64,000 nucleotides of DNA from Levilactobacillus yonginensis (GTDB lineage Bacteria; Bacillota; Bacilli; Lactobacillales; Lactobacillaceae), in NCBI RefSeq assembly GCF_964065165.1, contig NZ_OZ061549.1, positions 186,001-250,000 on the forward strand, written 5' to 3'. A program made the position numbers and the translations under genes. Each line of letters opens with the position of its first letter. Position 1 is the stretch's first letter. A model generated the notes under the pieces. It saw nothing but the letters and a program-made list of their open reading frames with translations. It was not told where the DNA came from and made no database searches. Positions 39,739 through 62,248 of the stretch are shown here, piece after piece.

Positions 39739-39904
39739 GGCAGTCAGGGCGGGGCCAGCAGTGAAAATGTCGTTAGCTAGCGTATTTTGCTAGGTTATGA
39801 CATGGGCGAATTTGAAGACCCGCGAACTTACGGGGCTTCAAATCGAGCGAGAAGCCCGGTCTTTGGCTGAAGCGTCCCCACAGCTGGTCCCCACCCTGAC
39901 TGCC
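39739..39904 (+). repeat. Structured intergenic element, copy A
   Basis: Closing stem GGCAGTCAGGG.GGGG.CCAGC (39739-39759) with GCTGG.CCCC.CCCTGACTGCC (39883-39904). Arm 1 is 39767-39803 (GTTAGCTAGC/GCTAGGTTA). Arm 2 is 39810-39843 (ATTTGAAG/CTTCAAAT) with A.G mismatch 39818/39835. Arm 3 is weak (AGCC/GGCT near 39853). TCCCCACAGC.GG near its end is shared with copy C. The 200 bases before it hold nothing else recognised. It lies upstream of the trmL promoter, so it is not part of that transcript. Confidence 0.75.
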
Positions 39905-39967
39905 GGAGCGCGGTATTCATCCAAAGAATCTCTAGGAATATAATCTGCCTTTACCCTCGTTACTCTC

Positions 39968-39997
39968 TTGTCAAAACCCACTGAAAATGGCTATAAT
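39968..39997 (+). promoter_or_regulatory. Promoter of trmL-ftsK
   Basis: TTGTCA, 18 bases, perfect TATAAT, about 47 bases before the trmL start. Confidence 0.75.
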
Positions 39998-40044
39998 GAT
40001 GGGACAGAACGAATGTTTGATAACAGAACGGAGAAGAGAATTTT

Positions 40045-40557
40045 ATGGCAAACCACATTGCGTTATTTGAACCACTATTTCCCGCCAATACGGGAAACAT
40101 TGCCCGGACCTGTGCTGGGACGGATACGATTTTAGACTTGATCAAACCCCTCGGATTTTCCGTCGACGACGCCCACTTAAAACGGGCTGGTTTGGACTAC
40201 TGGGACAAGGTTGACGTCCGGTACCATGAAAATTTGCCGGCCTTTTTAGACACGATTCCGGACCCAACGCAACTCTACCTGGTTTCCAAGTTTGCTGACC
40301 AAGATTACACGGAACCAGACTACAGTGTGAACGAGAGTGATCACTACTTCCTATTTGGGAAAGAAACGACGGGGCTACCAGAACCCTTCATGCGGCAACA
40401 CAGTGAAAAGTGCATTCGGATTCCACAAGACGACACGCATATTCGGGCCCTTAACCTGTCCAACAGTGCGGCGATTGTGATTTACGAAGTCATGCGCCAA
40501 CAGGCTTTTCCTAACCTGGAACGGGTACACACTTACCCACATGACAAATTAAAATAA
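40045..40557 (+). CDS. trmL: tRNA (cytidine/uridine(34)-2'-O)-methyltransferase TrmL
   Basis: 170 residues, usual length for TrmL. SPOUT-fold motifs: EPLFPANTGNIARTC (9-23), KPLGFSVDDAHLKRAGLDYWD, FGKETTGLP and IRALNLSNSAAIVIYE. It methylates the 2'-OH of the wobble nucleotide of tRNA-Leu isoacceptors with SAM. ATG start after ACGGAGAAG. ftsK starts 25 bases after its stop. Confidence 0.92.
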   Translation: MANHIALFEPLFPANTGNIARTCAGTDTILDLIKPLGFSVDDAHLKRAGLDYWDKVDVRYHENLPAFLDTIPDPTQLYLVSKFADQDYTEPDYSVNESDHYFLFGKETTGLPEPFMRQHSEKCIRIPQDDTHIRALNLSNSAAIVIYEVMRQQAFPNLERVHTYPHDKLK

Positions 40558-59203: not shown

Positions 59204-59229
59204 GAACAAAAATCAAGGAGGAAAACGGT

Positions 59230-62040
59230 ATGCGAGTGAAAGACACACTGAACTTGGGTAAAACCAAGTTTAAGATGCGCGGGAACTTACCAGTCAAAGA
59301 AGTTGACCGGCAAAAAGCTTGGGCTGACAACAAAGTTTACGAAGCCCGTCAAAAATTAAATGAAGGGAAGCCTAGCTTTATTTTGCACGATGGGCCTCCA
59401 TACGCTAACGGCCCCATTCACATGGGACACGCATTAAACAAAATTTCTAAGGACATCATCATTCGCTACAAATCAATGAATGGTTTCCGGGCACCTTACG
59501 TTCCTGGTTGGGATACTCACGGTTTGCCAATTGAACAACAATTGACGAAGGCCGGTTACGACCGGAAGAAGATGTCAACGGCGGACTTCCGGGACCTTTG
59601 TCGCGAATACGCTTTGAAGCAGGTTGACCAACAACGCGAAGGTTTCAAGCGTTTAGGGGTTGCCGGCGAGTGGGATAAGCCATACTTGACGTTGAATCCA
59701 GAATTCGAAGCCCAAGAAGTTCGGGTCTTCGGTGAAATGGCGAAGCGTGGTTTGATCTACAAGGGGAAGAAGCCAGTTTACTGGTCATGGTCCTCTGAAT
59801 CAGCCATGGCTGAAGCCGAAGTTGAATACCACGATGTAACGTCACCTTCCGCTTACTACGGGTTGAAGGTCGTTGATGGCAAGGGCGTTTTGGATAACGA
59901 TACGTACCTGGTTGTCTGGACGACGACGCCTTGGACGGTGCCCGCCTCTGAAGGGATTACCATCGATGCAGGGTTGGAATACCAGGTTGTTCAACCAGCT
60001 GGTGAAGACCGTAAATTCGTCTTAGCTAGTACGTTGATTGACGAAGACGCTAAATTGTTTGGTTGGGAAGACGTTAAGGTCTTACAAACCATCAAGGGTC
60101 AAGATCTTGAAAAGATCACAGCGCAACACCCTTTCATGGACCGGAAATTACTGGTTATGCTGGGCGACTTCGTTACTGACGAAACGGGTACTGGTTTGGT
60201 TCATACCGCACCAGGCTTAGGGGAAGATGACTTTAACGTTGGGATGCAATATGGCTTGCCCGTCATTGTACCGGTCAACGACCAAGGGTACATGACGGCT
60301 GAAGCTGGCCCCGACTTTGATGGTGTCTTCTATGAAGATGCGAATGACATTGCCTTGAACAAGCTGAAGGAAACGAACGCTTTGCTCAAGTACATGCCTT
60401 ACGAACACAGCTATCCATTTGACTGGCGGACTAAGAAGCCCGTTATCTTCCGGGCAACGCCACAATGGTTTGCGTCCGTTGACAAGATTCGTGACGAGAT
60501 CCTGGCGAACTTGAAGGATGTTAAATTCAAGCCTGACTGGGGTCAACGTCGGTTGGCCAACATGATCAAAGACCGTGGCGACTGGGTTATCTCTCGTCAA
60601 CGGGTTTGGGGTGTGCCACTGCCAATCTTCTATGGTGAAGATGGTGAGGCAATCATCACGCCAGAAACGGTCAGCCACGTTGCTGATATCTTTGAAAAGT
60701 TTGGGTCTAACGAATGGTTCAAGCGTGAAGCCAAGGACTTACTGCCAGAAGGCTTTACCAGTGAACATTCTCCAAACGGCGAATTCACTAAGGAAACCGA
60801 CATCATGGACGTCTGGTTCGATTCTGGTTCCTCACACCAAGGTGTCTTAGCCGAACGGGATAACCTTGAATTCCCAGCTGATTTGTACCTGGAAGGTTCA
60901 GACCAGTATCGTGGGTGGTTCAACTCTAGTTTAATTACGAGTGTTGCCGCAACCGGCAAGGCCCCTTACAAGCAAGTCGTTTCCCAAGGATTCACGTTGG
61001 ACAAAGATGGTCACAAGATGTCCAAGTCTCTGGGTAACACGATTGCCCCGGATGAAATCATCAAGAAGATGGGGGCCGACATTGTTCGTCTCTGGGTTAC
61101 TTCTGTGGATTCATCTGCCGACGTGCGGGTGTCAACCGAAGCCTTCGTGAAGATTTCTGACAGCTACAAGAAGCTGCGGAACACCATGCGTTACTTATTG
61201 GCTAACACCAGTGATTTTGATCCTGAGGCCAATGGGGTGGCATTTGATCAGTTAGAGACGGTTGACCGTCACATGCTGTACAAATTGAACGCATTCACCA
61301 AGAGTATTCTGGCCCACTATGAAGACTACGACTTCCTGAACATCTACAAGGAACTCACGAACTTTGTTATCACTGATTTGTCGGCCTTCTACCTGGACTT
61401 CGCCAAGGATGTTCTGTACATCGAAGCCGAAGACAGCCAGGATCGTCGGTCAATGCAAACGGTCTTCTACCAAATCGCCGTTACGTTGACGAAGCTGATC
61501 ACGCCAATCCTGCCACACACGGCCGAAGAAATCTGGGACTTCTTGAAGGAACCGGAAGACTTCGTTCAGTTGGCTGAAATGCCAAAAGTCATGGACATGG
61601 CCGATGCTACTGAAGTTGCCGGGGATGATGAAAAGTCAGCCTGGGATCACTTCATGAAGTTGCGGAGCCACGTTTTGAAGGCTTTGGAAGAAGCTCGGGA
61701 TGCTAAGTTGATTGGGAAGGCCGCCGAAGCCCACCTCGACTTATACGTTGACGATGACATGCAAGCAATGTTGGATAAGCTAGCTATCAACGTACAGCAA
61801 ATCTTGCTGGTTTCTGGTTTAGACGTTGCTAGCTTAGACCAAGCACCAGCCGATGCACTGAGCTTTGACCACGTTGCTGTTAAGGTAACGCCAGCCGCAG
61901 GTGAAGTTTGTGACCGTTGTCGGTTGGTTAAAGAAGACGTTGGCAGCGATACGGACTACCCACACTTCTGTGCGCGTTGTGCTGCAATCGTTCGTCAAAA
62001 CTTCCCTGAAACCGCTACTGAAGGTTTCGAAGAAAAGTAA
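59230..62040 (+). CDS. ileS: Isoleucyl-tRNA synthetase
   Basis: 936 residues; AAGGAGG 8 bases before the ATG. Class I motifs HMGH in GPIHMGHALN (about 54-63) and KMSKS (about 597-601), CP1 editing domain (200-390, TTPWTVPASEG), anticodon-binding region, and C-terminal zinc ribbon CDRC...CARC. It charges tRNA-Ile. Controlled by the upstream T-box and flanked by structured elements D and E. Confidence 0.97.
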   Translation: MRVKDTLNLGKTKFKMRGNLPVKEVDRQKAWADNKVYEARQKLNEGKPSFILHDGPPYANGPIHMGHALNKISKDIIIRYKSMNGFRAPYVPGWDTHGLPIEQQLTKAGYDRKKMSTADFRDLCREYALKQVDQQREGFKRLGVAGEWDKPYLTLNPEFEAQEVRVFGEMAKRGLIYKGKKPVYWSWSSESAMAEAEVEYHDVTSPSAYYGLKVVDGKGVLDNDTYLVVWTTTPWTVPASEGITIDAGLEYQVVQPAGEDRKFVLASTLIDEDAKLFGWEDVKVLQTIKGQDLEKITAQHPFMDRKLLVMLGDFVTDETGTGLVHTAPGLGEDDFNVGMQYGLPVIVPVNDQGYMTAEAGPDFDGVFYEDANDIALNKLKETNALLKYMPYEHSYPFDWRTKKPVIFRATPQWFASVDKIRDEILANLKDVKFKPDWGQRRLANMIKDRGDWVISRQRVWGVPLPIFYGEDGEAIITPETVSHVADIFEKFGSNEWFKREAKDLLPEGFTSEHSPNGEFTKETDIMDVWFDSGSSHQGVLAERDNLEFPADLYLEGSDQYRGWFNSSLITSVAATGKAPYKQVVSQGFTLDKDGHKMSKSLGNTIAPDEIIKKMGADIVRLWVTSVDSSADVRVSTEAFVKISDSYKKLRNTMRYLLANTSDFDPEANGVAFDQLETVDRHMLYKLNAFTKSILAHYEDYDFLNIYKELTNFVITDLSAFYLDFAKDVLYIEAEDSQDRRSMQTVFYQIAVTLTKLITPILPHTAEEIWDFLKEPEDFVQLAEMPKVMDMADATEVAGDDEKSAWDHFMKLRSHVLKALEEARDAKLIGKAAEAHLDLYVDDDMQAMLDKLAINVQQILLVSGLDVASLDQAPADALSFDHVAVKVTPAAGEVCDRCRLVKEDVGSDTDYPHFCARCAAIVRQNFPETATEGFEEK

Positions 62041-62046
62041 TTTAGT

Positions 62047-62248
62047 AGGTCATGGCGTCTCCGGTTGGCCGGCTCAGCACCTGCCGTGGGGACCGGAACA
62101 AGCCGGAAAGCGGTCTTGTCCCTCGACTTGAAGCCACGGAAAGTCACCGCGTCTTCAAGCTCGTCCCGTGTTAGTTACCTGAAAATCACAGGCAACTAAC
62201 ACTGACACGGCTGGTGTTGACCCGGCCAACCTCCGCAACGAATGACCT
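62047..62248 (-). repeat. Structured intergenic element, copy E (inverted)
   Basis: Outer stems AGGTCAT/ATGACCT (62047, 62242), GGTTGGCCGG/CCGGCCAACC (62063, 62222) and GCCGTG/CACGGC (62083, 62206). Arms: 62098-62119 (ACAAGCCG/CGGTCTTGT), 62125-62162 (CTTGAAG/CTTCAAG) and 62168-62202 (GTGTTAGTTACCTG/CAGGCAACTAACAC). The minus strand aligns with copy C: the middle arm is identical at 30 of 38 bases with compensatory changes, and CCGGTCCCCAC.GCAGG is shared. Begins 7 bases after the ileS stop and lies before its terminator. Bases 62249-62460 show nothing further. Confidence 0.82.

Follow-up and report, generated by a model that had tools for sequence, protein, structure and literature searches.

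The question raised by this locus is why a bacterial genome should carry, between its genes, copies of an element whose sequences diverge but whose predicted folds agree. The stretch analyzed, hereafter the window, comprises 64,000 nucleotides of Levilactobacillus yonginensis (assembly GCF_964065165.1, contig NZ_OZ061549.1, positions 186,001 to 250,000 of the forward strand), in which a sequence-only reading had described five such elements, A to E, and had proposed that they are selected for folding, either as RNA or as a DNA cruciform. All five are present at the places claimed, but they are only a few members of a family that extends across the genome: a covariance model finds at least 146 places in this genome at E values of ≤1 and at least 138 at <1e-3 (150 of 759 candidates scored). 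All 146 lie on contig C1, and the remaining four contigs (~230 kb) have none. We think it about an even bet (probability roughly 0.5) that the family is a non-autonomous dispersed repeat of ~190 bp, similar to miniature inverted-repeat transposable elements (MITEs) or to the paired repetitive extragenic palindromes (REPs) known as REPINs, whose folded strand was recognized in trans and whose copies were later inherited and lost.

Fold, covariation, and folded strand

A blastn search of the 2.88-Mb genome with element E as the query gave at least 40 places (the best 40 of 85 candidates); 28 of 30 fetched loci entered a core alignment, from which RNAalifold returned a single consensus structure that we converted into the covariance model. 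An inner basal helix (GCTGTG/CACAGC) is followed by arm 1 and then by a short GGGAC/GTCCC stem that carries arm 2 (CTTGNAGAC...GGCTTCAAG) and arm 3 (AGCAAGACCG...GGCTTGCT). A longer closing stem lies outside the core, with feet of the type GTAGCCGGAGG...CCGGAGGCGGC, and the CCGGAGG-type repeats at both feet belong to the conserved element. The window elements measure 176 to 202 nt with stems included and have the long closing stem and arms originally described (three arms in A, B, C, and E; two in D, a variant without arm 3), and the minimum free energy (MFE) of each beats 200 of 200 dinucleotide shuffles (z of -6.8 to -12.2). The covariance-model search that the sequence-only reading had proposed recovers all five, of which A, B, and D were untrained; at E values of <1e-8 it finds exactly these five in the window, none of them in the glycan island, and its only other window match is an antisense piece of E (E value, 0.15).

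The earlier reading had also placed an A.G mismatch in the middle arm of every copy. By eye this is present in the three copies inspected base by base, A (39818/39835), C (44222/44240), and D (59031/59049); across the 28 aligned genomic copies, the position holds A.G in 21, C-G in 5, and A.A in 2. Other irregularities are also kept: in arm 3, the bulge ahead of CC/GG is A in 25 copies and C in 3; a U.U mismatch in arm 1 is retained in 24 of 28; and the junction bases are conserved across genera.

Paired positions change in concert. In the MAFFT alignment, 95.5% of cells are paired, and 32 of 47 core pairs show changes on both sides; the 189 double-change cells compare with 53 ± 6 after shuffling (0 of 500 shuffles reach the observed value) and fall to 15 to 33 when partners are slid by 1 to 3 columns. 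The model was also applied to 21 loci chosen from exact-pattern matches in named genomes plus L260, on a viral contig. When 18 of the copies it found, from Companilactobacillus, Lactiplantibacillus, and Secundilactobacillus, were aligned and folded independently of the model, they showed the same architecture; 27 of 41 pairs are double-changed, a count without controls. The proposed selection on folding is supported by the double changes in excess of shuffles and by the like folding of copies in other genera. In the 89-copy alignment (A3), pairing leans to the structure because the model guided the alignment; alignments A2 and A6 were made with MAFFT, the copies in A6 having themselves been found by the model.

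The helices of the 89 copies contain 156 G-U and 39 A-C combinations, and those of other genera contain 33 and 6 (a table summed by hand). Later scripts carried 86 of the 89 rows, the three lowest being left out. The excess is seen both in 50 copies lying antisense to an mRNA whose gene 3' end they face within 500 nt (87 G-U, 22 A-C) and in 25 that face a gene start within the same distance (38 and 6). Because the copies are related to each other, we attach no probability to it, but its direction indicates that the folded molecule is a single strand in the orientation of the element itself, which disfavors selection on a symmetric DNA cruciform; and since the excess persists where the element runs antisense to the facing gene, selection is not acting on the mRNA of that gene. 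The folded single strand may be either RNA or single-stranded DNA (ssDNA). Long-term filtering on the fold is clear; the signal of recent selection in place is weaker. Nor do the elements look like intrinsic terminators: a simple script detects a terminator-like site (hairpin plus T-tract) inside only 1 of 49 elements.

Table 1. Elements of the family in the window
Element	Window position	Strand	Model core	Model score	Training set	MFE z	Remark
A	39734..39911	+	39758-39884	87.9 bits, E 2e-17	outside	-6.8	
B'	43528..43651	-					partial tandem duplicate of B, near-identical by eye; overlapping blastn matches in G010 and G028
B	43652..43827	-	43676-43803	58.1 bits, E 7e-11	outside	-8.3	
C	44131..44321	+	44160-44291	125.5 bits	in (L025)	-7.6	
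D	58931..59119	+	58978-59069	51.9 bits, E 1.6e-9	outside	-12.2	
E	62048..62249	-	62083-62211	126.2 bits	in (L001)	-9.3	

Hosts, databases, and arrangement around genes

Of 35 Levilactobacillus genomes searched, 33 have model matches, this one among them; only G022 and G031 have none. None of 23 genomes from other families of the order has a match, 97 of 397 Lactobacillaceae genomes do at E values of ≤1e-5 (in 10 of 40 genera), and in a class-wide sample of 398 genomes, the L. yonginensis genome is the sole match. These genus/order, family-wide, and class-wide searches (>40 genomes each) used stricter filters, under which weak matches are lost. Among the matches listed, named genomes with the exact pattern belong to Levilactobacillus, Secundilactobacillus, Companilactobacillus, Lactiplantibacillus herbarum, and a few Lactobacillus sp. 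As far as searched, the family is confined to the Lactobacillaceae. Within contig C1, the first 200 kb hold none of the at least 138 best copies, and few lie at ~0.65 to 1.2 Mb.

It had been thought that the element might be a catalogued Lactobacillales RNA, but Rfam 15 contains no counterpart: neither the window elements nor those of seven further loci reach the gathering score of any family, and the best relaxed match for E has an E value of only 0.24. The Rfam matches in those stretches are a 23S-methyl motif and a thiamine pyrophosphate (TPP) riboswitch, both outside the elements; a 23S-methyl motif (RF01065, 67.5 bits) occupies window positions 39428-39529, upstream of element A. The family is not recognized in the literature searched, in which subscription papers are thinly covered and which includes the accessible parts of PMC3733652, PMC2267715, and PMC2864571. 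It is apparently undescribed, a covarying branched repeat in about a quarter of the sampled Lactobacillaceae genomes that is absent from Rfam.

Gene and terminator calls in our scripts were simple ones. On these calls, 78 of 86 copies are clear of open reading frames (ORFs), seven overlap frames of 100 to 139 amino acids, and one overlaps the start of a 487-amino-acid frame. Neighboring copies have a preferred orientation. Below 1 kb, own-genome neighbors are minus-plus in 29 cases, plus-minus in 0, minus-minus in 3, and plus-plus in 2; one plus-minus pair appears at 1 to 1.5 kb, and at larger distances 40 neighbors are plus-minus, 8 minus-plus, and 48 same-strand. Across three partly orthologous locus sets, 57 of 66 neighbors that share a gene gap are minus-plus, 9 are same-strand, and none is plus-minus, and among the loci chosen from named genomes plus L260, the minus-plus order holds for all eight neighbors closer than 1 kb, of which five are from outside Levilactobacillus and Lactobacillus sp. 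Elements B and C are such a minus/plus pair within one gap. The 3' end of the element points towards the nearer gene in 70 of 82, 48 of 56, and 32 of 34 copies of the three sets, a rule that is weaker for modules alone in their gap (20/27, 13/17, and 7/7). Own copies face gene 3' ends in 52 of 82 cases and 5' ends in 30, so a gene-direction rule was rejected, and the polarity is unexplained by gene direction.

Element D lies upstream, and E a short way past the stop codon, of a 936-amino-acid ORF that we take to be ileS, judging by its length and the usual gene order. A long hairpin at window positions 59150-59215, just upstream of ileS, appears nearly the same by eye in 19 of 19 printed genomes of the genus and has no Rfam match. 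In the region corresponding to window positions 58800-59230, a T-box-like sequence, judged by eye from its motif, precedes ileS in G007, G031, G032, G017, and G026; Rfam reports no T-box in the L. yonginensis window, and the T-box before ileS seems to have been lost in this lineage near element D. Elsewhere in the window, positions 11143-18696 hold a 2,517-amino-acid open frame with long antisense open frames, part of which (~15.9 to 18.1 kb) gives many separate alignments to G028, indicating that it is repetitive.

Inheritance, loss, and the origin of the copies

Seventeen own elements were compared; in each relative, those outside the counts given here lack synteny. In comparable gaps, a same-strand element is present in 13 of 13 cases in G010, 15 of 17 in G028, 5 of 8 in G003, 3 of 13 in G015, and 1 of 2 in G001. 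The two G028 absences that we inspected are partial deletions in which parts of the element remain; element C is deleted in this relative with its 3' foot kept. At nine sites where its relative G032 carries a full element, G031, which has no matches, is short; remnants can be made out by eye at two or three of these sites, and one of them resembles a deletion between GCCGNAGG feet. Among 73 own copies, the best paralogues have a median identity of 76% and a top non-tandem identity of 92%, and 10 of 14 best matches between this genome and G028 lie at 86 to 97%; most copies are thus older than the species split. Most look old, inherited, and lost by deletion.

Our preferred explanation is that the modules spread in the past as non-autonomous elements. 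Neighbors make up mirror pairs with their 3' ends to the flanking genes, placed after a stop codon or terminator or upstream of a start. A terminator-like hairpin between the modules of two pairs suggests that modules reach a gene edge singly. A protein encoded elsewhere would have recognized the folded single strand, so that only foldable copies propagated, and the modules would then have been inherited, drifting and being lost by deletion; local roles may have been added later, and a local function is possible today. Between orthologues, single changes yield G-U and A-C in nearly equal numbers (59 and 48), and such a weak recent asymmetry is expected if folding was filtered at propagation more than at rest.

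Several observations weigh against this explanation. No mobilizing enzyme was identified from the distribution of Y1 transposases or, by eye, in two inter-module spacers. Y1_Tnp occurs in 23 of 35 genomes of the genus; the 12 without Y1 transposase genes all have elements, the two genomes without element matches possess Y1 genes, and only 2 of 20 Y1 loci have an element nearby. Transposon units of this type can be missing in some species, according to PMC3733652, so the lack of Y1 in element-bearing genomes is not decisive by itself; as the present distribution does not match that of the elements, we nevertheless rejected a REP-associated tyrosine transposase (RAYT) or other Y1 transposase as the partner. 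No clean empty site was found among the two G028 absences and the G031 sites inspected, and non-tandem paralogues above 90% identity occur in just one subfamily of the 73 own copies, so the spread was old or slow. Finally, stems evolve slowly relative to third codon positions (8.3% versus 16.3% differences), hinting at a constraint in place that a purely selfish element would not need.

Candidate vehicles and autonomous forms were also considered. Plasmids or phages were rejected as the main home: collections of their records gave no blastn match (they may omit records near this genome), three patterns searched against viral contigs found two contigs in all, and all own copies are on C1. One of the two, a 4,936-bp phage fragment, carries a 115-bit copy (L260:247-375) upstream of genes for the small and large terminase subunits and portal (PHROG matches), and such a copy could be a vehicle between genera; the other (L318:953-990, IMGVR_UViG_3300027907_000020) has an arm-3 variant pattern near the end of the piece, which may be host flank. 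An autonomous form with its gene lodged between mirror modules was set aside after two own loci showed no transposase by eye (no family search was run), as was a composite transposon as a general rule, given variable spacing and native-looking terminators between modules.

More tentatively, the modules may constitute a new class, distinct from RAYT/REPIN systems, of large, gene-bracketing branched elements, found across the family, that are kept for their single-strand fold, mostly lie with the 3' end to a gene irrespective of its direction, and would be read as outward noncoding RNA or ssDNA by a dedicated protein.

We regard it as unlikely, though to be taken seriously, that the elements are instead host-serving boundaries that act in place as structured RNA or folded DNA, for example by blocking exonucleases, terminating transcription, or binding protein. 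Their positions are common to close relatives (G010 and G028, above), and at syntenic loci their stems change only about half as fast as third codon positions and adjacent flanks: in blastn alignments with close relatives (matches of >900 letters only, with no identity filter), unpaired element sites differ at 13.5% and 60-nt flanks at 15.9%. An identity-filtered comparison gave a stronger contrast (4.7% versus 22% in the 100-nt 5' flank), which we discount. From 31 orthologous pairs found, 19 were used (7 identical pairs and 5 of <80% identity were left out, which favors conserved copies); they show 18 double changes, 12 of them pair-keeping, against ~3 expected by our own estimate from a paired rate of 4.7%. 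Placement also fits a role at gene ends. At gene 3' ends, 49 modules were scored: a terminator-like site separates the element from the stop codon in 20, and 20 follow the stop codon by no more than 25 nt, too closely for a terminator to fit between; of the latter, 11 have a terminator-like site only past the element and 9 have none detected. Behind ileS, by eye, E is present in this genome, G010, and G028 where printed relatives without the element have a terminator hairpin and T-tract. Against these points, two genomes of the genus lack matches, sharing drops in G003, G015, and G001, the strand that folds runs antisense to the mRNA where the element lies at a gene 3' end, other noncoding positions in the same alignments, which could include unannotated genes, differ at 7.6% and so change no faster than stems, and 93 of 152 single changes between orthologues unpair one side (a count inflated by pooling both folds).

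It is improbable that folding is under no selection and that quasi-palindrome correction by template switching, together with arm exchange, keeps the hairpins complementary. Arms are indeed swapped as blocks: the inner arms of D differ greatly in G010 and G028 with the basal stem conserved and IleRS 99% identical, a block exchange between copies, and an arm-3 sequence differs between otherwise similar orthologues. Template switching would, however, erase the mismatches and the bulge that are kept in most copies, and it offers no reason for G-U to exceed A-C or for the junction bases to be conserved across genera. Least likely of all, the modules could be the ends of a larger inverted-repeat transposon that lost its middle, as the minus-plus pairs resemble long inverted repeats and one subfamily has a common unit of ~470 to 510 bp with 82 to 84% identity, middle included; but spacing in minus-plus pairs under 1.5 kb runs from 129 to 1,332 bp, two pairs have a native-looking terminator-like hairpin between them (one common to element-free G031, one between convergent genes), and the two gene-sized spacers inspected show no transposase by eye (no family search was run).

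The polarity rule, the strand signal, and the availability of genomes with and without elements make the choice between propagation and local function directly testable, in food-associated species.

Comparison with known systems

The structured RNAs of Lactobacillales in Rfam are likewise covarying, branched, and intergenic, and no family among them matches the element. The Efar elements of Enterococcus faecalis are ~170-bp branched repeats near stop codons; they could be closer in size to the element. REPs adjoin stop codons and are long inherited, and the modules described here resemble REPs, REPINs, and bacterial interspersed mosaic elements (BIMEs) in being high-copy, intergenic, foldable, and arranged in inverted pairs. 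They differ in being ~190 bp long with two or three branched arms, REP palindromes measuring 20 to 40 bp, and in that their best paralogues reach a median identity of only 76%. REPs tagged with GTAG are known, as PMC3733652 describes; here, of 71 own copies, 26 carry GTAG at -31 to -27 of the 5' foot and 30 have it anywhere in the 27-nt foot window (versus 12 of 213 control windows), so that a minority of elements carries the tag. Failing the size and tag features of REPs and REPINs, and without a link to Y1 transposases, the element is nonetheless one that works most like them.

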